Below, piece after piece: positions 3,406 through 10,174 of a stretch of 20,865 nucleotides of DNA. Source of the stretch: a virus; the IMG/VR virus record IMGVR_UViG_3300043427_000924, positions 1 through 20,865 of that record. One strand, given 5' to 3'. Under the pieces are notes generated by a model, which was not told where the DNA came from, did not search any database, and saw only the letters and a list, made by a program, of their open reading frames with translations. The position numbers and the translations under genes were made by a program. The first letter of the stretch is position 1. The number at the start of each line of letters is the position of its first letter.

Positions 3406-4110
3406 TTATTGGATTACAAAACCGCTTGTGTCTTTTTTAGCTTTGTGCCCTTTAGCTCTCAGTCCGATTATTGTGCCGGGCTCAATATCGAGCATTAAGT
3501 CGTCACGTTCGTCTCCGTCTACCACTTTAAAACCTTTGTAGGTAGTCGGCAATTCATTTGCGAATACAAAGCTAGATATTCCACCATTTGACAATATTTC
3601 CAATGCTGTTTGCTCATTGTCTTCTGACCTACTAAAGCACACCATATAACGATGTCCCGACTTTAGTACTTTGTCACCTGCTTTATTAGGGATTTTTGTG
3701 TAGTCATAAAAAACCACATTTGATGCAATTTCGTGTAAGCTAGTCACCATTTCAACTAATTTATAGTCGCTTGTCCCATTTAGTCGAATAGCTAATTCGC
3801 CTTTAGTCCTTTTCGCTTTGTTGTTTATTTCCTTTGCGATTTGCTCTACAAAAGCAAAGCGATTGCCTAACAGAAAATTTGATTTCCTTATTCTTGCCGC
3901 TTGTACATTTGGCATTATGCCTAAACCCGCCTCATATAAACAAGCAAGCAAACAGCCTTTACTCGCTTTAGGGCACAAATTTACCCCAAAATCGTTTTGA
4001 TTTGCGGGCGAAAGATACAAAATAAGCGTTTCTCTGAAGTTCTTTTTTGTCTTAGCATTTGAGTCGCCTTTGCTCAATAAATTTTTGATTTGATTTGCTG
4101 TAGTGTTCAT
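3406..4110 (-). CDS. GP88-like phage protein (Cys-cluster)
   Basis: The 234-aa protein matches the phage 'gene product 88' family as I recall it. Near residues 34-57 it has a Ser-Pro-Ala, Leu-Cys-Pro-Lys-Ala, Gly-Cys, Ala-Cys pattern with Cys at 46, 53 and 57. This is followed by a basic QAARIRKSNFLLGN segment and a helix ending FVEQIAKEI. The conserved arginine/asparagine strand IRLNGTSD and the VVFYDYTK strand suggest an alpha/beta (possibly TIM-barrel-like) fold. The three-cysteine cluster could bind a metal or Fe-S centre, but the function of the family is not established. It is the first sizeable gene of the leftward operon. Confidence 0.8.
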   Translation of the reverse strand: MNTTANQIKNLLSKGDSNAKTKKNFRETLILYLSPANQNDFGVNLCPKASKGCLLACLYEAGLGIMPNVQAARIRKSNFLLGNRFAFVEQIAKEINNKAKRTKGELAIRLNGTSDYKLVEMVTSLHEIASNVVFYDYTKIPNKAGDKVLKSGHRYMVCFSRSEDNEQTALEILSNGGISSFVFANELPTTYKGFKVVDGDERDDLMLDIEPGTIIGLRAKGHKAKKDTSGFVIQ

Positions 4111-4132
4111 AATTAAATTAGTGTTTAGTGTT

Positions 4133-4231
4133 TTAAAATTTGTCTTTAGTGTTATTATATTCAGATATTAACCCATTTGCTGACATTAAAAATAATAATG
4201 TAACAGCACATAAAAAGAGTAAAAATTCCAT
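4133..4231 (-). CDS. Possible 32-aa membrane peptide
   Basis: A short frame starts at ATG 4231-4229 and ends at TAA 4135-4133. The N-terminal 16 residues (MEFLLFLCAVTLLFLM) are strongly hydrophobic, followed by a short polar tail. Upstream is an AT-rich TTTTAAAACACTTATTAAA leader like those of the other leftward genes, and it lies directly before the GP88-like gene. It is too short to be certain; a leader peptide of the operon is an alternative. Confidence 0.4.
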   Translation of the reverse strand: MEFLLFLCAVTLLFLMSANGLISEYNNTKDKF

Positions 4232-4291
4232 TTTAATAAGTGTTTTAAAAAGTTAGCGCCTATTTTGGTATCGAAACCAAATAAGAAAAAT

Positions 4292-4429
4292 GCTGATTAT
4301 CATTTTTTACACTACATTCCAATGCAGTAACTTAAAACCTATATAGGCTATTCGACAAAACAAAGTATAGGACAAAAAAAGCTGATTATCTTTTTTTACA
4401 TTGCAATCCATTGCAATAACCTAAAGCCC
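4292..4429. repeat. Diverged direct repeat with internal dyads
   Basis: Two copies of about 48 bp (4292-4339 and 4381-4429) share GCTGATTATC(A/T)TTTTTTACA and a following dyad centred on CC. In the second copy the dyad is perfect: ATTGCAAT, CC, ATTGCAAT at 4400-4417. In the first it has one mismatch (4312-4327). Both end in a (C/A)CTAAA(A/G)CC-like stretch. On the leftward transcript each would form a hairpin. Likely regulatory; only two units, so not a CRISPR array. Confidence 0.6.
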
Positions 4430-4527
4430 GTTAAGACTCAAAAAAACCTTTAAATTGGGTTTTCTATATCTGATTCACCACGTCCCCCTCAGATACGTAA
4501 AAATGCAATCACTCATTTTTACCAATA

Positions 4528-4547
4528 ATATGTACACGGGTACATAT
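4528..4547. promoter_or_regulatory. Perfect inverted repeat, candidate operator
   Basis: ATATGTAC, ACGG, GTACATAT: two perfect 8-bp arms with a 4-nt centre, lying in the predicted leader of the leftward operon. It could be a dimeric repressor site or an RNA hairpin. Confidence 0.5.
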
Positions 4548-4698
4548 ATCGCGCTCGTTTTTCTCATTTTAGTTGACTACGCCACGCATCCCAATTACCC
4601 ACAAAATAAAAGAACTATTACACTAGTATATATTAAGATTTTAACTGCTGTCGTTAGACATGAACTTAATATATAGTACACCTTTCAATACTTCACTT

Positions 4699-4711
4699 TC
4701 GTATCTGATAC
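4699..4711. promoter_or_regulatory. Palindrome CGTATCTGATACG, candidate operator
   Basis: CGTATC, T, GATACG is a perfect palindrome around 30-40 bp downstream of the leftward promoter start. Related half sites occur at about 4489 (TCAGATACG) and 4735 (GTATCAG), so three sites surround the promoter. The arrangement fits an operator for a phage repressor. Confidence 0.5.
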
Positions 4712-4748
4712 GTGTTAGCCTTGTGCCTCAATTGTATCAGAACGTTAG

Positions 4749-4779
4749 CAAAGGTACGACTACTTTTTAAACTTGCAAG
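4749..4779 (-). promoter_or_regulatory. Leftward Bacteroidota-type promoter
   Basis: On the minus strand TACCTTTG (4756-4749) fits the Bacteroidota -7 box TAnnTTTG. It is preceded by CTTG (4779-4776) at exactly 19 nt, fitting the -33 TTG box. Transcription would start near 4742 and run into the leftward operon. The resulting leader to the first likely ATG at 4231 would be about 510 nt, unusually long, and contains several inverted repeats. Confidence 0.55.
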
Positions 4780-4927
4780 TATTTTGCAAAGTTTTTTTTA
4801 AAAAAAGTGAAAATATTTTTTGACTCAAAACTAGCAAAACGCTGAAAGGCCGATAAAACCTGGATTTTGTGTTTTTAGGCGACTGAAAAAAAATTTCGGG
4901 AAAGGGATTTTTTTGCAGATGCTATAC

Positions 4928-4950
4928 CTTTGCTTAGATTGTAAGCAAAG
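4928..4950. repeat. Inverted repeat CTTTGCTTA/TAAGCAAAG with a later partial copy
   Basis: Two perfect 9-bp arms flank the centre GATTG. An 18-nt portion (4934-4951) recurs at 5178-5195 with one difference, TTAGATT(G/A)TAAGCAAAGT, so the iteron zone lies between the two copies. TACCTTTG at 4925-4932 resembles a rightward -7 box but has no matching -33 box. Confidence 0.5.
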
Positions 4951-4987
4951 TATATAAATGCAACAACGTTGCAGAAATAAATAATAA

Positions 4988-5062
4988 TATACGACGTAAG
5001 ATCATGCGAAAAGTGATCAATATACGACAAAAAACAACTGTGAAAAGAGATATATATACGAC
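4988..5062 (+). repeat. Three TATACGAC iterons about 33 bp apart
   Basis: TATACGAC occurs at 4988, 5021 and 5055. The last two sit in a longer shared unit of about 24 nt, TG(C/T)GAAAAG(T/A)GA followed by ATATACGAC. Spacings of 33 and 34 bp put the boxes on roughly the same face of the helix, as in replication-initiator or regulator binding arrays. Confidence 0.6.
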
Positions 5063-5101
5063 GTTTTTTATGCGATAACTGGTAAACATCTGAGATAAAA
5101 A

Positions 5102-5214
5102 GTAAACTATAAATGATAAAATAGTTTACAAAAAATCATTGGCTTGTAAACTATGTTTAGACTAATAGTTACTTAGTTTAGATTATAAGCAAAGTTAGTT
5201 TACATTCTAAACTA
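5102..5214. repeat. Six TAGTTTA(C/G) boxes in both orientations
   Basis: Boxes lie at 5102 (inverted), 5122, 5146 (inverted), 5174, 5196 and 5207 (inverted). Two pairs form dyads: GTAAACTA to TAGTTTAC at 5102-5129, and TTAGTTTA, CATTC, TAAACTAA at 5195-5215. They follow the TATACGAC iterons directly. A binding array for a replication initiator or a master regulator is the best reading. Confidence 0.6.
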
Positions 5215-5225
5215 AGTTTCACTCT

Positions 5226-5348
5226 CGCGTGTGTGCGTGCGCGAGCGCGTGCGCCTATGTGTCCGCGCGTGTACCCGTGCGCCCATGCGCGTGGCGTGTG
5301 CGTCTGTGCGTGTGTATGTGTGCGCGTGTGTATGCGTGTGCCTATGCC
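5226..5348. repeat. GC-rich alternating purine/pyrimidine tract (potential Z-DNA)
   Basis: About 120 bp consists almost only of GT, GC and occasional AT dinucleotides, in sharp contrast to the AT-rich surroundings. The stretch 5305-5341 alternates pyrimidine and purine without a break for 37 nt; 5226-5243 does so for 18 nt. Such sequence is prone to left-handed Z-DNA under negative supercoiling. Two open frames cross it only because the repeats lack stop codons. Their products would be nonsense Cys/Val/Arg/Ala repeats. Confidence 0.7.
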
Positions 5349-5468
5349 TACAAAAAGCCTAAAAAATCAGCCGAGCCAAGGCAAAACAGCACCCCCACCC
5401 CTCGAAAAAAATTCCGTTTTCCATTTTCGTTTTGTTTCGTAAAATTGTTATAGTACCCAAAACCCCTA

Positions 5469-5499
5469 TTTGTTTAATCAATAATTTTTTTTACCTTTG
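5469..5499 (+). promoter_or_regulatory. Consensus Bacteroidota promoter
   Basis: TTTG at 5469-5472, a 19-nt spacer, and TACCTTTG at 5492-5499 match the -33 and -7 boxes of Bacteroidota exactly. The transcript would start near 5505 and reach the ATG at 5533 after a short AT-rich leader. Since the -7 box covers the possible TTG start at 5497, that upstream start is excluded. Confidence 0.8.
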
Positions 5500-5532
5500 T
5501 CCCGTTACGTTAACAATTTAAAACTTATAGCT

Positions 5533-5784
5533 ATGAGAGTAAATGGAATTAAGAACAGTATTTACGGCAGTTATGCCGGAGGAGATGGGTTGACTATGAA
5601 GAATGGTCGATTGATTAACAATAGGCCATGTGGAGAGACTGGTATTGCTGAGATGGCTAGGGCTAGGAAGATGGAGAAGAGGGAGGATAAGGTGAGTATG
5701 ATAGCTGAGGGATATGCACGTGGGGAGATGATGAGTGAGGCATCGGAGATGATGATGATGATGCCAATAAAGGTTAGGCGTTAG
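5533..5784 (+). CDS. 83-aa orphan protein, single-gene transcript
   Basis: The protein starts at the ATG at 5533, preceded by the AGCTATG context shared with other genes here. The N-terminal half is Gly/Asn-rich (NSIYGSYAGGDGLTMKNGRL). The C-terminal half is a charged helix (AEMARARKMEKREDKVSMIA) followed by a Met-rich tail with five consecutive Met. It has no membrane segment and one Cys. I do not recognise the family. Its own consensus promoter and strong terminator mean it is expressed independently of the neighbouring operons, so it may be an abundant early product or a regulator. Confidence 0.7.
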   Translation: MRVNGIKNSIYGSYAGGDGLTMKNGRLINNRPCGETGIAEMARARKMEKREDKVSMIAEGYARGEMMSEASEMMMMMPIKVRR

Positions 5785-5812
5785 TTAGTGTTTCATAATT
5801 AGTTTAGTTTTG

Positions 5813-5838
5813 GGGCATCCTTCGGGGTGCCTTTTTTT
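5813..5838 (+). terminator. Rho-independent terminator with UUCG loop
   Basis: GGCATCC, TTCG, GGGTGCC forms a 7-bp stem with one U-G wobble and a stable UUCG tetraloop, directly followed by seven T. It ends the single-gene unit at 5533-5784. Confidence 0.9.
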
Positions 5839-6111
5839 AATACATATTTAATACAGGTTTTAAAGAATAATACATAAAACGTAGTGGATGTCGTGTACTA
5901 TTTCTATATATTTCTTCTTATTATTATTATTTATGTCGATTATTGACACTAAAAATGTCAATAAAATGTCAATTATATTGATATAAATAATTGATTATTA
6001 AGAGAAATGTCGAAAATGTCGAAAATAAAACCAAAATGAAATTTAAAAATAAATTCGCGTTAAATAATAAAATATATATAGAATATAGAAATTCAAAATA
6101 TGAAAATCGGT
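5839..6111. other. AT-rich intergenic region with TGTCAA/TGTCGA repeats
   Basis: There is no convincing gene. It holds an inverted repeat TTGACA to TGTCAA around 5941-5961, a further TGTCAA at about 5967, and a tandem AATGTCGAAAATGTCGAAAAT at about 6006-6026. These are possible operators for the downstream chaperonin operon promoter. Confidence 0.45.
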
Positions 6112-6142
6112 TTTGGATATTTAAAAAGTAGTTTTATCTTTG
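6112..6142 (+). promoter_or_regulatory. Promoter of the chaperonin operon
   Basis: TTTG at 6112-6115, 19 nt, TATCTTTG at 6135-6142: an exact match to the Bacteroidota consensus. The first ATG of the operon (6147) lies only 4 nt beyond the -7 box, so the mRNA is predicted to be leaderless or nearly so. Confidence 0.75.
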
Positions 6143-6146
6143 TGGC

Positions 6147-6416: not shown

Positions 6417-8060
6417 ATGTTTGACAGTACAGGCTATTCACCCAAGGACTTGGTCTTTGGAGAGAAGGGGCGCAACAAGTTGATTGATGGCATCACTAAG
6501 ATTGCTGATGCAGTAAAGAGTACCCTTGGCCCAGGGGGCAATACGGTGTTGATAGAGTCACCGCATCACACACATGGTATCACGGTTACAAAGGATGGGG
6601 TTACAGTTGCCAAGGCTGTTGACCTGTTTGATCCGGTAGAGAACCTTGCGGTTAGGATGATGAAGGAGGCAGCTGAGCGTACCGCTACCAGTGCAGGGGA
6701 TGGGACGACTACCTCAATAATCCTGACGGAGGCTATGGTCCTTGAGGGGACTAGGTTGCTAACGCCTGACTTGAATCGCACTGCGGTGCTAAGGCATTTG
6801 CATACTATGTGCAATGAGGTGGTCAGTCAGTTGTCGGCAAAGGCTAAGAAGGTGACGAGTAAGATGATTGCTGACGTGGCTACAATATCAGCGAATAATG
6901 ACAAGGAGATAGGGCGAATCATCGCTGAGGTGTATAAGGACATCGGGAGAGATGGCATTGTTACTGTGGAGAAGAGTCAGACCCATGAGACGTATGCTGA
7001 GACCACCAAGGGCCTAAAGATTGACAGGGGCTATCTGTCAAATATGTTCATCAATGACCAGAAGAAGGACGAGTGTGTATTTGAGGATGTGATGGTATTG
7101 GTATGCGACATTGAGATAAGTAATATCTTGCAGATTGAGAACATATTAAAGCCGATCATTACTGAGGGTAAAAAGTTACTCATCATATCGCCATGCAGTG
7201 TGAACGTGGTCAATACCCTTGCGGCCAATGTCGTAAAGGGTAACGTCAAGGTCTGCGCTATTGCTCCGCCTAACTTTGGGTATAAGCAGCACGAGCTGAT
7301 GCAGGACATCGCGATAAGTGTTGGGGCTAACTACTTCAGTGAGAAAACAGGTGACGACTTGTCGCTCATCAACTATGGCGACTTAGGCCATGCGGCAAAG
7401 GTTATTGTCTCATCTGACAAGACTATCCTACTCAAGTCAAATGCGAGAGCCAAGGCTGAGCAGGTTGACGAAAGGGTCAAGCAGCTATGGGCCGCTCATG
7501 CTATGGCAAAGCGCAAGGCTGACAAGGACTTCATCTTGGAGCGCATCGCTTCATTGACCGGTGGTATCGGTGTTATATATGTCGGAGGTAATACTGACCT
7601 GGAGCAAAAGGAGCTGTATGACCGAGTTGACGATGCAGTATGCGCTGTTAGATCTGCTTTGGAGGAGGGTATCCTTCCAGGTGCCGGCAAAGCACTCTTC
7701 GAGATTGACCATAGTAAGCTGTTGGGTGACCCTCAAAATCATGAGCTGAACGTGGCGTGGCATATCATGGACGCAGCGCTTGAGGCCCCAATCAAACAGA
7801 TACTAAAAAATGTCGGGCTTAACTTTGAGGAGGTGTATGAGTTCTTTACTCCTGAGGGATATGACAAGGTGCCTGACGGACATGGGTACAATGTCAAGAC
7901 CGGTGAGTTCGGGGACCTCATCAAGATGGGTATCGTTGACCCACTCAAGGTCACAAGGAGTGCGCTGCAAAATGCAGTAAGTGTGGCATCAACAATTCTT
8001 AGCACTAATGCCATCATCACAATGGGTAGGAGCTTTGAGATTTCTAACGCTAAACAATAA
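6417..8060 (+). CDS. groEL: Phage-encoded group I chaperonin GroEL
   Basis: At 547 aa this is full length and readily alignable by eye to bacterial GroEL. The ATP site is intact: TLGPGGNTV at residues 36-44, TKDGVTVA with D60 (equivalent of E. coli D52), GDGTTT at 94-99 with D95 (D87), and RVDDAVCAVRSALEEG with D406 (D398, the hydrolytic Asp). The apical domain (about 195-380) keeps the hydrophobic helices used for substrate and GroES binding (ISNILQIENIL; VVNTLAANVV). The C-terminus ends NAKQ and lacks the Gly-Gly-Met tail found in many bacterial GroELs. It probably folds phage virion proteins together with the GroES encoded at 9917-10174. The DNA is more GC-rich than the late genes in the lines I counted (about 48% against about 32%). 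Confidence 0.97.
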   Translation: MFDSTGYSPKDLVFGEKGRNKLIDGITKIADAVKSTLGPGGNTVLIESPHHTHGITVTKDGVTVAKAVDLFDPVENLAVRMMKEAAERTATSAGDGTTTSIILTEAMVLEGTRLLTPDLNRTAVLRHLHTMCNEVVSQLSAKAKKVTSKMIADVATISANNDKEIGRIIAEVYKDIGRDGIVTVEKSQTHETYAETTKGLKIDRGYLSNMFINDQKKDECVFEDVMVLVCDIEISNILQIENILKPIITEGKKLLIISPCSVNVVNTLAANVVKGNVKVCAIAPPNFGYKQHELMQDIAISVGANYFSEKTGDDLSLINYGDLGHAAKVIVSSDKTILLKSNARAKAEQVDERVKQLWAAHAMAKRKADKDFILERIASLTGGIGVIYVGGNTDLEQKELYDRVDDAVCAVRSALEEGILPGAGKALFEIDHSKLLGDPQNHELNVAWHIMDAALEAPIKQILKNVGLNFEEVYEFFTPEGYDKVPDGHGYNVKTGEFGDLIKMGIVDPLKVTRSALQNAVSVASTILSTNAIITMGRSFEISNAKQ

Positions 8061-8065
8061 GACCA

Positions 8066-8425
8066 ATGCTTAATACACTAGCTAAAAATATCTACGAGGG
8101 GAATAAAGCCAGAGGATTCTGGGATAATGAGCGCAATATTGGCGAGACGCTCATGCTTGTCGTTACAGAGCTTGCTGAGGCACTCGAAGCGCATCGGGCA
8201 GGGAAACTATGCACCTACGGGGACAAAATGGCTTACGCGGAGTCTGACGACACCACACAGGCATTTAAGCATCACATCAAGGACAGCTTTGAGGATGAGA
8301 TAGCTGACGCTGTTATTCGACTGCTTGATATGTGTGGTGGATTTGGTATTGACATAGACTTCCATGTGACATCAAAACTCATGTACAATGCATCAAGGCC
8401 ATACAAGCATGGTAAGAAATATTAG
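8066..8425 (+). CDS. MazG-like nucleotide pyrophosphohydrolase
   Basis: The 119-aa protein has the MazG/all-alpha NTP pyrophosphohydrolase metal motif: E35-x-x-E38 in VTELAEALEAHR and E78-x-x-D81 in FEDEIADAVIRLLD. Single-domain MazG-like enzymes hydrolyse (d)NTPs to monophosphates plus pyrophosphate. In phages they are thought to clean up nucleotide pools or alter host stress nucleotides. An insertion between the two motifs (about residues 45-75) is longer than in minimal members, but similar inserts occur in phage versions. It begins 5 nt after groEL, in the same operon. Confidence 0.85.
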   Translation: MLNTLAKNIYEGNKARGFWDNERNIGETLMLVVTELAEALEAHRAGKLCTYGDKMAYAESDDTTQAFKHHIKDSFEDEIADAVIRLLDMCGGFGIDIDFHVTSKLMYNASRPYKHGKKY

Positions 8426-8451: not shown

Positions 8452-9297
8452 ATGAAGCATTCTTTGCATTCCTCTTTTTACCCACACATTGACGCACATA
8501 AATTTACTACTGTAGTAAAAAAGCTCAGACAGTTTTTTGACAACAAAGGTCTCCTTGAGGTGCATACGCAAAATAGGTTGAGCATATTGGCGGCCTGCGA
8601 GAATCCGCATAGCATTGCTAAGTTTACATACAACCACAATGTCTATCCGCTACCGCAGACTGGGCAGATGTGGCTTGAGCATGAGCTGCTAACACAACCA
8701 CAAGAGAAGGGGTTTTACTGCTTGTCAACGAGCTACCGCAATGAGGAGGCGCCAATTGAGGGTCGCCACTGCATGATCTTCCCAATGTTTGAGTTTGAGT
8801 TCCATGGCACGATGACCGAGCTAGCGATAGTAGAGACTGAGCTGCTTGAGTATCTTGGTTTTAAAACACCTGCTATCAGAAACTATGAGGACGTGTGCGA
8901 TGAGTATGGGGTCAGCATCATTGAGAATGACACAGAGACAAAGCTATACCATGACGTATCTGACGCAGTGTTGTTAATGAACTTCCCAGAGCGCACCAAT
9001 CCATTTTGGAATATGGAGAGACATGACAATGGAACAGCTAAGAAAATTGACGTAATCCTCTGCGGTCAAGAGACGATTGGGTCTGCTGAGCGCAGCTGTA
9101 ATCCTGAACAGATGAAAAAGAACTTCTTTACCATCGAGGATGGCAAATACGCTGAGAAGTTATTCGAGCTTTTTAGCTACAATAGAGTAATTGATGAGCT
9201 TGAGGAGTTCCTACAAAATAAATTTATCCCACGAGTAGGGGCCGGTATTGGTATTACCAGACTCATCAGAGCCATGGAGATAAATAAATTGATTTGA
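8452..9297 (+). CDS. Stand-alone class II aminoacyl-tRNA-synthetase-like ligase core
   Basis: At 281 aa this is the catalytic core of subclass IIb synthetases (Asp/Asn/Lys type) without an anticodon-binding domain. Motif 1 region: FFDNKGLLEVHTQ (about 28-40). PQTGQMWLEHELL (68-80) matches the SPQLYKQ-type segment. Motif 2: STSYRNEEAPIEGRH with R96, E98, R105 and H106, followed by MFEFEF. The metal-site region GQETIGSAERS is at 205-215. Motif 3: GAGIGITR with R270. All ATP-binding residues seem present, so it should form aminoacyl adenylates. Stand-alone relatives include asparagine synthetase (AsnA and the archaeal AsnRS-like type) and EpmA, which modifies EF-P. Which of these it resembles, and its acceptor, cannot be told by eye. 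Confidence 0.85.
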   Translation: MKHSLHSSFYPHIDAHKFTTVVKKLRQFFDNKGLLEVHTQNRLSILAACENPHSIAKFTYNHNVYPLPQTGQMWLEHELLTQPQEKGFYCLSTSYRNEEAPIEGRHCMIFPMFEFEFHGTMTELAIVETELLEYLGFKTPAIRNYEDVCDEYGVSIIENDTETKLYHDVSDAVLLMNFPERTNPFWNMERHDNGTAKKIDVILCGQETIGSAERSCNPEQMKKNFFTIEDGKYAEKLFELFSYNRVIDELEEFLQNKFIPRVGAGIGITRLIRAMEINKLI

Positions 9298-9366: not shown

Positions 9367-9906
9367 ATGAGATATGCAATATTTTTATTCCTGTTTACTG
9401 CGGCATTTCCCCTTTTCAATCCGATTGAGAAAAAGAAGGAGATACAGTATCGGGAGGAGCCGGTACAAGAGATTATTGAGGAGAAGAAGACGCTAGACTA
9501 CTCTATCAATAAAAAACCAAAGGCTGAGTGGAACGAGGTAGATTGGATGGCGAAGATGCTAATGTCAGAGACACCTGACTCAACTGACGTAGAGGGGCTT
9601 CGATACATGGCCATCTCCGCAGTCGTCAGAGCAGAGATGATGAAGTCGAATGTCATCAAAGCAATAACATATCCAAGAGCCTATAGCGGTGTGAATCTAG
9701 AGAGCTATATCTGGTGGAGAGCTGAGCCAACAAGTATACACAAAGCAATTGCGTGGGACTTAGTAGAGAATGGTCTCAGAGAAAGCGATCCAAAAATCTA
9801 TGCATTCTGCAATATGAGCATCATCTCCGAGAAGAATAGGAGATGGTTTAGAACACTAAAGTTCTATAAAAAAATCGGAGAGGTAACATTTTTTCTTTTA
9901 CCATAA
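9367..9906 (+). CDS. SleB-like cell wall hydrolase, secreted or anchored
   Basis: This 179-aa protein starts with a hydrophobic segment (RYAIFLFLFTAAFPLF, residues 2-17) that acts as signal or anchor. A charged Glu/Lys linker (about 20-55) follows. The C-terminal domain resembles the SleB/Hydrolase_2 lysozyme-like fold: DWMAKMLMSET with E68 in the position of the catalytic Glu, then LRYMAISAVVRAEM, VIKAITYPRAYSGVN and a downstream KAIAWDLVENGL. The usual VLNRV segment is changed to VVRAEM, so it is a divergent member. It probably cleaves peptidoglycan in the periplasm, for lysis or entry. It follows the terminator at 9318-9344 and precedes groES by 10 nt. Confidence 0.65.
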   Translation: MRYAIFLFLFTAAFPLFNPIEKKKEIQYREEPVQEIIEEKKTLDYSINKKPKAEWNEVDWMAKMLMSETPDSTDVEGLRYMAISAVVRAEMMKSNVIKAITYPRAYSGVNLESYIWWRAEPTSIHKAIAWDLVENGLRESDPKIYAFCNMSIISEKNRRWFRTLKFYKKIGEVTFFLLP

Positions 9907-9916
9907 ATCTAATCTA

Positions 9917-10174
9917 ATGCAACCAATAGGAAAGTACATAGTCGTTTCGTCAATTGACGAGGAAATTAAAACAGATTCCGGCATCATCCTTTCAGGAGAC
10001 GATGCCAGTCAATTCAGATATAAAAAGGGTAAGGTAGTAAAACCTGGCACTGACGTATCTGTGATAAAAGAAGGGGACGTTGTCTACTACGACAAGGGAT
10101 TCTCATTCACGATGATCATCAATAACGAGCAGCATACAATCATTCGGGAGACCGACGTCGTTGTTGTTTGTTAA
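9917..10174 (+). CDS. groES: GroES-like co-chaperonin
   Basis: At 85 aa it is slightly shorter than bacterial GroES (about 95). It begins with the strand PIGKYIVV. EEIKTDSGIILSGDD (residues 15-29) matches the mobile loop, with the hydrophobic tripeptide IIL at 23-25 that docks on GroEL. Later motifs fit the family: KKGKVVKPG (about 37-45), IKEGDVVYYDKG (50-61) and TIIRETDVVVV (74-84). It should form the heptameric lid for the GroEL encoded at 6417. It is separated from groEL by three genes rather than lying next to it. Its 3' end overlaps the convergent regulator gene by 35 bp. Confidence 0.9.
   Translation: MQPIGKYIVVSSIDEEIKTDSGIILSGDDASQFRYKKGKVVKPGTDVSVIKEGDVVYYDKGFSFTMIINNEQHTIIRETDVVVVC

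Follow-up and report, generated by a model that had tools for sequence, protein, structure and literature searches.

In its textbook form, pyrimidine synthesis starts with CarAB, PyrB, and PyrC, the end product of which, dihydroorotate, passes to PyrD, PyrE, and PyrF. Stand-alone cores of class II aminoacyl-tRNA synthetases are described from other settings: the archaeal asparagine synthetase A (AS-AR; PDB 3p8t) is a core of ~290 aa derived from asparaginyl-tRNA synthetase (AsnRS) that carries a GAGIG motif 3, lacks an anticodon domain, and acts on a free β-carboxylate, and EpmA/PoxA/GenX is a stand-alone class II core as well. In cyanophages, a sporadic gene of P-SSM2 and P-SSM7 (T4-GC 194) has been named ‘tRNA ligase’ without being characterized (PMC3037559).

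Here, we describe a gene of this same family, termed X in the following, on a 20,865-nt stretch of viral DNA (IMG/VR record IMGVR_UViG_3300043427_000924; hereafter, the window). The X family is large and common to phages and bacteria, and it probably makes building blocks of DNA and RNA rather than charged tRNA for translation.

X is a stand-alone class II synthetase core

X is an intact open reading frame of 281 aa with an ATG start (Table 1), as the first-pass annotation of the window had proposed. Because an in-frame TAA lies five codons 5′ of this ATG, an overlooked upstream domain is excluded. The Pfam family PF00152 (tRNA-synt_2) spans residues 19–275 (E=2e-15; 57.1 bits vs a cut-off of 25) and, with motifs 2 and 3 both in place, X belongs to the class II cores of the D/K/N type. 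The protein also matches PHROG 29758 (phrog_29758; E=3.7e-97), a group of unknown function in PHROG. The core starts near residue 15, and the N-terminal OB-fold anticodon-binding domain of AsnRS is missing from X—as from every viral or cellular homolog shown.

We aligned 60 sequences, comprising X of the window and homologs from viral and cellular loci, with those from annotated phage records kept apart. Sixty-one residues were invariant, including R96, E98, R105, H106, E207, R214, and R270; the motif 2 and motif 3 residues highlighted in the first-pass annotation are hence preserved family-wide, and the adenylate-binding residues have not been lost. In an alignment to the AsnRS structure 2xgt, E50 pairs with the Glu of the VEGGS loop and residues 200–214 with the G-E-x-x-G-G-S-x-R segment; E50 is replaced by Asp in one further huge-phage homolog from outside the aligned set. 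Motif 3 is consistent with the pattern GxGxGxxR. At the position of an AspRS Lys that presumably binds the Asp carboxylate, X has a Leu, like the AsnRS of Brugia. Given that its adenylation motifs are intact, X probably uses ATP to activate a carboxylate.

AlphaFold2, run on the 60-sequence alignment, confidently predicted a class II fold (mean pLDDT 92.9; pTM 0.90). In Foldseek searches with this model, the best PDB folds were AsnRS structures (2xgt, 8tc8, 1x54, and 8h53; TM ~0.7–0.75 by query length), mostly with Asn-adenylate or its analogues bound, and AspRS and LysRS structures came just behind. Among viral structure models, a protein of the giant virus Pithovirus LCPAC304 was a structural match with 42% identity.

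X nevertheless scored roughly tenfold short of the cut-offs of the known families—25.3 bits vs 342.6 for AsnRS (TIGR00457), 23.8 vs 309 and 19.1 vs 322 for asparagine synthetase A (NF005054 and NF005053), and 29.9 vs 286.9 for EpmA (TIGR00462)—and is thus an AsnRS-like chassis rather than a member of any of them. The first-pass annotation had considered a ligase with a small-molecule substrate, possibly making asparagine, or one that aminoacylates a protein. The former idea, of a small-molecule ligase serving host metabolism, probably holds. Plain asparagine synthesis from Asp, NH3, and ATP by an enzyme of the AsnA or AS-AR type, however, is very unlikely: the similar-sized stand-alone core, the similar motif 3 (GAGIG), and the recovery of 3p8t as a distant match in both PDB sequence searches speak for it, but the scores above do not, and such an enzyme would have no reason to sit in pyr operons or to track the absence of CarB, PyrB, and PyrC (see below). 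Aminoacylation of a protein, as by EpmA on EF-P, is extremely improbable; the EpmA model was the top NCBIfam match, yet at a very weak score, and the recurrent neighbors of X are nucleotide-metabolism genes.

Table 1 Coordinates of features in the window and of tRNA-like RNAs in window-type phages
Feature	Position	Strand	Evidence or remark
GP88 family protein	3406-4110	-	PF17338 E=3.5e-31
Region of ~2 kb with few convincing ORFs	4111-6146		low-complexity stretch near 5229-5400
GroEL chaperonin, upstream of X	6417..8060	+	PF00118 E=9.7e-62
MazG-like nucleotide pyrophosphatase, immediately 5′ of X	8066..8425	+	phrog_9236 pyrophosphatase E=2.6e-33
X, stand-alone class II (AsnRS-like) synthetase core; candidate dihydroorotate-forming ligase	8452..9297	+	PF00152, PHROG 29758, AlphaFold2, Foldseek
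Active-site loop of X, A48-C49-E50	8593..8601	+	all three invariant across the 60-sequence alignment
Motif 2 of X, residues 96-106 (R96, E98, R105, H106)	8737..8769	+	all four invariant in 60 homologs
X residues 200-214 (D200, G205, E207, G210, A212, R214)	9049..9093	+	all six invariant in 60 homologs
Motif 3 of X, GAGIGITR, residues 263-270	9238..9261	+	G263, G265, G267, R270 invariant
179-aa ORF, downstream of X	9367-9906		no Pfam or PHROG match
GroES co-chaperonin, downstream of X, neighbor only	9917..10174	+	PF00166 E=2.9e-11
tRNA-like RNAs in window-type phages	L021:1358-1440, L018:5366-5472, L025:5847-5939, L030:10488-10648, L258:1501-1619, L250:523-633		

The family is shared by phages and cells

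Relatives of X were found on 496 IMG/VR stretches in one scan and on at least 597 in another. In GTDB genomes, 130 stretches carried relatives, from lineages that include Bacteroidota, CPR, DPANN archaea, Chlamydiota, Proteobacteria, and Myxococcota; the 80 that were kept are 49–60% identical. Nine records of annotated phages matched X by tblastn, each over most of its length, among them the Prochlorococcus phages P-SSM2, P-SSM5, and P-SSM7, with 52%-identical homologs annotated as ‘tRNA ligase’, as well as huge phages whose genomes measure 484 and 735 kb. By simple ORF calls, homologs measured 251–335 aa. Since the same core recurs in hundreds of viral stretches and in 130 cellular ones, chance and sequencing error are excluded as the origin of X. 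A full tRNA synthetase cut short by a sequence error—an outcome that would have undone the first-pass reading—was likewise rejected, given that this core is found at hundreds of phage and at least 80 cellular loci and that an in-frame stop precedes it. One viral contig bearing X additionally holds a predicted tmRNA gene (L045:3346-3740, minus strand; tag ANDNYAPVEYAIAA).

In a maximum-likelihood tree, viral and cellular members were intermixed, with at least five state changes forced by well-supported branches. This intermixing and the shared invariant residues make a single chemistry likely for viral and cellular X.

Gene neighborhoods point to pyrimidine and nucleotide metabolism

In the window, X lies among chaperonin genes, and the first-pass annotation had read the groEL and mazG linkage as a hint of a system for taking over host metabolism or translation. 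The MazG-like gene next to X is indeed conserved across window-type phages, and the linkage recurs within the window’s own phage group. As a property of the family, however, groEL linkage was rejected, since X is linked to groEL and mazG in that group only; the adjoining GroEL lies outside the function proposed here. The informative neighbors are pyrD, pyrE, and pyrF in cellular genomes and, on the phage side, ThyX, dUTPase, deoxynucleoside kinase, and PyrE.

Among phages, ThyX is encoded beside X in four loci (L022, L028, L031, and L016), two of which (L031 and L016) have dUTPase nearby; a deoxynucleoside kinase adjoins X in L057, with a similar ORF in L054; PyrE lies two genes 5′ of X in L220; and in P-SSM2, mazG, purH, and nrdA/nrdB are found within a few kb of the homolog. 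On the 63.6-kb contig that is the window phage’s closest long relative, the pyr, ThyX, and dUTPase queries used had no match, and X of this relative would therefore have to feed host enzymes.

In cellular loci, neighbor-gene clustering placed PyrE/PyrF near X in ~20 and PyrD in ~13 of 80 cases (23 and 18, respectively, with looser clustering). This linkage spans unrelated lineages: Bacteroidota, Proteobacteria, Midichloriaceae, Pasteurellaceae, and Myxococcota. The most telling arrangements, checked with HMMs, are the run X–PyrF–PyrE-like–PyrD-like–PRPP synthetase in Candidatus Bandiella (L150) and X–PyrF–PyrE-like in Pasteurella atlantica (L161), where a PyrD gene diverges on the other side of X. 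In both loci, the enzymes leading from dihydroorotate to UMP are all accounted for and X is the sole unassigned gene. Moreover, two PyrE/PyrF-cluster genes directly follow X in five proteobacterial metagenome-assembled genomes (MAGs; L134, L135, L138, L152, and L154), and Bacteroidota loci show the order PyrD–X with PyrEF nearby.

The PyrE-like proteins beside X are short (127–134 aa; L161:6827-7889 and L150:1251-3015) and, like the 254-aa PyrD-like protein of Bandiella, fall far below the usual family cut-offs. Other recurrent neighbors are a PEP carboxykinase-like gene, directly 5′ of X in four Flavobacteriia-type contigs (L088, L092, L094, and L105) and also near X in L135, L138, and L152, and an argininosuccinate-lyase family gene, which immediately precedes X in loci from CPR and Cytophagaceae (L107, 4645-5931; L109; L111; L112). 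The latter might supply a substrate to X.

Most carrier genomes lack the first steps of the pathway

We searched 40 X-carrier genomes, taken from the loci in hand rather than at random and including many incomplete MAGs, for the enzymes upstream of dihydroorotate. PyrB scored above cut-off in two of them and CarB in two, plus one copy split over contigs. Dihydroorotase was found in two by TIGR00857 (pyrC_multi) and in one CPR genome by NF006688; pyrC_dimer yielded none in the 40. Taken together, 35 of the 40 had no above-cut-off CarB, PyrB, or dihydroorotase. CarB and PyrB were above cut-off in 14 of 14 control genomes. An initial impression that Bacteroidota carriers retain PyrC was rejected, as those strong sub-cut-off matches that were re-tested proved to be allantoinase or dihydropyrimidinase. 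At E<=1e-15, PyrD was detected in 22 carriers, a count that leaves out the divergent Bandiella protein; the remaining 18 were mostly reduced CPR/DPANN MAGs, several of them small.

The same pattern emerged between close relatives. In the order of Aureispira, PyrB was present in 0/9 carriers vs 25/30 non-carriers (Fisher p ~9e-6, uncorrected for phylogeny), and in the family of one further carrier (G036) it was present in 31 of 40 genomes and absent from both known carriers. Pasteurellaceae proved uninformative as a contrast: ten sampled non-carriers also had no PyrB, which argues that PyrB can be lost without X and that its loss in this family need not be tied to X. The Coatesbacteria genome G026 encodes X together with PyrB and PyrC.

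Judging from gene context and phyletic pattern, X likely acts in pyrimidine synthesis.

A tRNA-Asn adjoins X in one clade of marine phages

A long tRNA-Asn follows X in 73 of 75 searched cyanophage-type loci, mostly 8–12 nt past the stop codon (the covariance model also catches ordinary tRNAs in tRNA-rich phages, and weak matches were left out). In the aligned set, these tRNAs are 85 to 110 nt long, and U1-A72, G73, and the anticodon GUU are conserved in each of 59 distinct sequences (a few of them taken from other marine contigs), with covariation at other stem pairs. In bacteria, U1-A72 with G73 are Asn-type features; we take the D-arm and the long variable arm to resemble those of tRNA-Leu. 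In the tree, the sampled tRNA-bearing marine phages form one clade (support 98/96), which also holds two MAG-contig sequences; the branch uniting this clade with Bandiella and Pasteurella is weaker (87/81).

Nearly all cellular loci have no tRNA-Asn beside X, the exceptions being two MAG contigs (L131 and L140). Neither ARAGORN nor an unfiltered covariance search detected a partner tRNA in the window; window-type phages have no such tRNA beside X, and the best relative contig is devoid of canonical tRNAs. Window-type phages and a related podophage without X (MW202828) do encode tRNA-like RNAs of 83–161 nt (Table 1). These RNAs have a good acceptor stem, D- and T-arms that are Leu-like, and A73, but CCA is not encoded, and the middle part varies and shows no clear anticodon arm.

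The adjacent tRNA fits a minimal AsnRS–tRNA pair and an Asn source for X alike. As a minimal AsnRS, X would serve translation by charging a phage tRNA-Asn dedicated to it, for instance to make up for host tRNA that is lost upon infection. The conserved identity and position of the tRNA and the AsnRS fold agree with this; nonetheless, we regard it as unlikely, as the tRNA is a trait of one viral clade, X has no anticodon domain, and neither the pyr operons nor the missing CarB, PyrB, and PyrC would be explained. In addition, full-length AsnRS coexists with X in 20–24 of the 40 carriers, so X is not a stand-in for AsnRS, and a replacement of that enzyme in cells was rejected.

Alternatively, and rather doubtfully, pyrimidine synthesis could be tRNA-linked in marine phages: the long-arm tRNA-Asn would be a dedicated Asn carrier, either charged directly or as Asp-tRNA that is then amidated, and X would build dihydroorotate from the tRNA-borne Asn. 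In our literature search, which covered neither preprints nor most subscription journals, no paper apparently described this pyrimidine route, the long-arm tRNA-Asn, or its pairing with X; a prior description is possible.

A candidate dihydroorotate-forming ligase

Regarding its specific role, we lean toward X being a ligase derived from AsnRS that supplies PyrD with its substrate, dihydroorotate, and thereby bypasses CarAB-PyrB-PyrC. The adjacent tRNA-Asn of marine phages falls outside this model. Without CarAB, PyrB, and PyrC, the starting materials would have to be common metabolites, and we tentatively propose Asn, bicarbonate, and ATP: as adding CO2 to asparagine and removing water gives dihydroorotate, and as X resembles AsnRS, this is the shortest and chemically simplest one-enzyme route. 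Asn would bind to X and have its amino group carboxylated by bicarbonate or CO2; ATP would adenylate the resulting carbamate; and the side-chain amide nitrogen would then close the ring to yield dihydroorotate, with AMP and PPi leaving. The substrate pose in X would have to differ from that in AsnRS, since an AsnRS-like pose offers the α-carboxylate to ATP. In phages, X may raise the pyrimidine supply for DNA replication by feeding PyrD, PyrE, and PyrF of the host or the phage.

X might instead replace PyrC alone, adenylating the β-carboxylate of N-carbamoyl-aspartate made elsewhere and closing the ring. Archaeal asparagine synthetase A—an AsnRS paralog and distant match of X—sets a precedent, and the argininosuccinate-lyase family gene directly 5′ of X in four loci would be compatible. 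However, most carriers have neither CarB nor PyrB, leaving carbamoyl-aspartate without an obvious source, and none of the other genes in the Bandiella run is a candidate, so that we deem this improbable.

If X does form dihydroorotate, a class II synthetase core replacing three steps would constitute a new entry route to UMP and explain why PyrD, PyrE, and PyrF are kept in lineages that resemble pyrimidine auxotrophs. X would then also be a widespread phage metabolic gene—present on hundreds of viral contigs, in cyanophages and in huge phages, with a structural match in a giant virus—that is now annotated as a tRNA ligase or as unknown.

Comparison with known systems

AsnRS shares with X the catalytic fold (TM ~0.73 for 2xgt, 8tc8, and 1x54) and motifs 2 and 3, yet the two are 18–20% identical, AsnRS has the anticodon-binding domain that X lacks, and their gene neighbors differ. 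AS-AR resembles X in its size, its motif 3, and the missing anticodon domain, but resides in a different genomic context, and X reaches ~24 bits vs 309 against its family. EpmA/PoxA/GenX and X have the stand-alone class II core in common, but their neighborhoods are unrelated. T4-GC 194/phrog_29758 is the same family as X (52% identity). CarAB-PyrB-PyrC, finally, would share with X the end product and the downstream partners PyrD, PyrE, and PyrF, but these enzymes are unrelated to X in fold, and X would be a single class II adenylating ligase that proceeds without carbamoyl phosphate.
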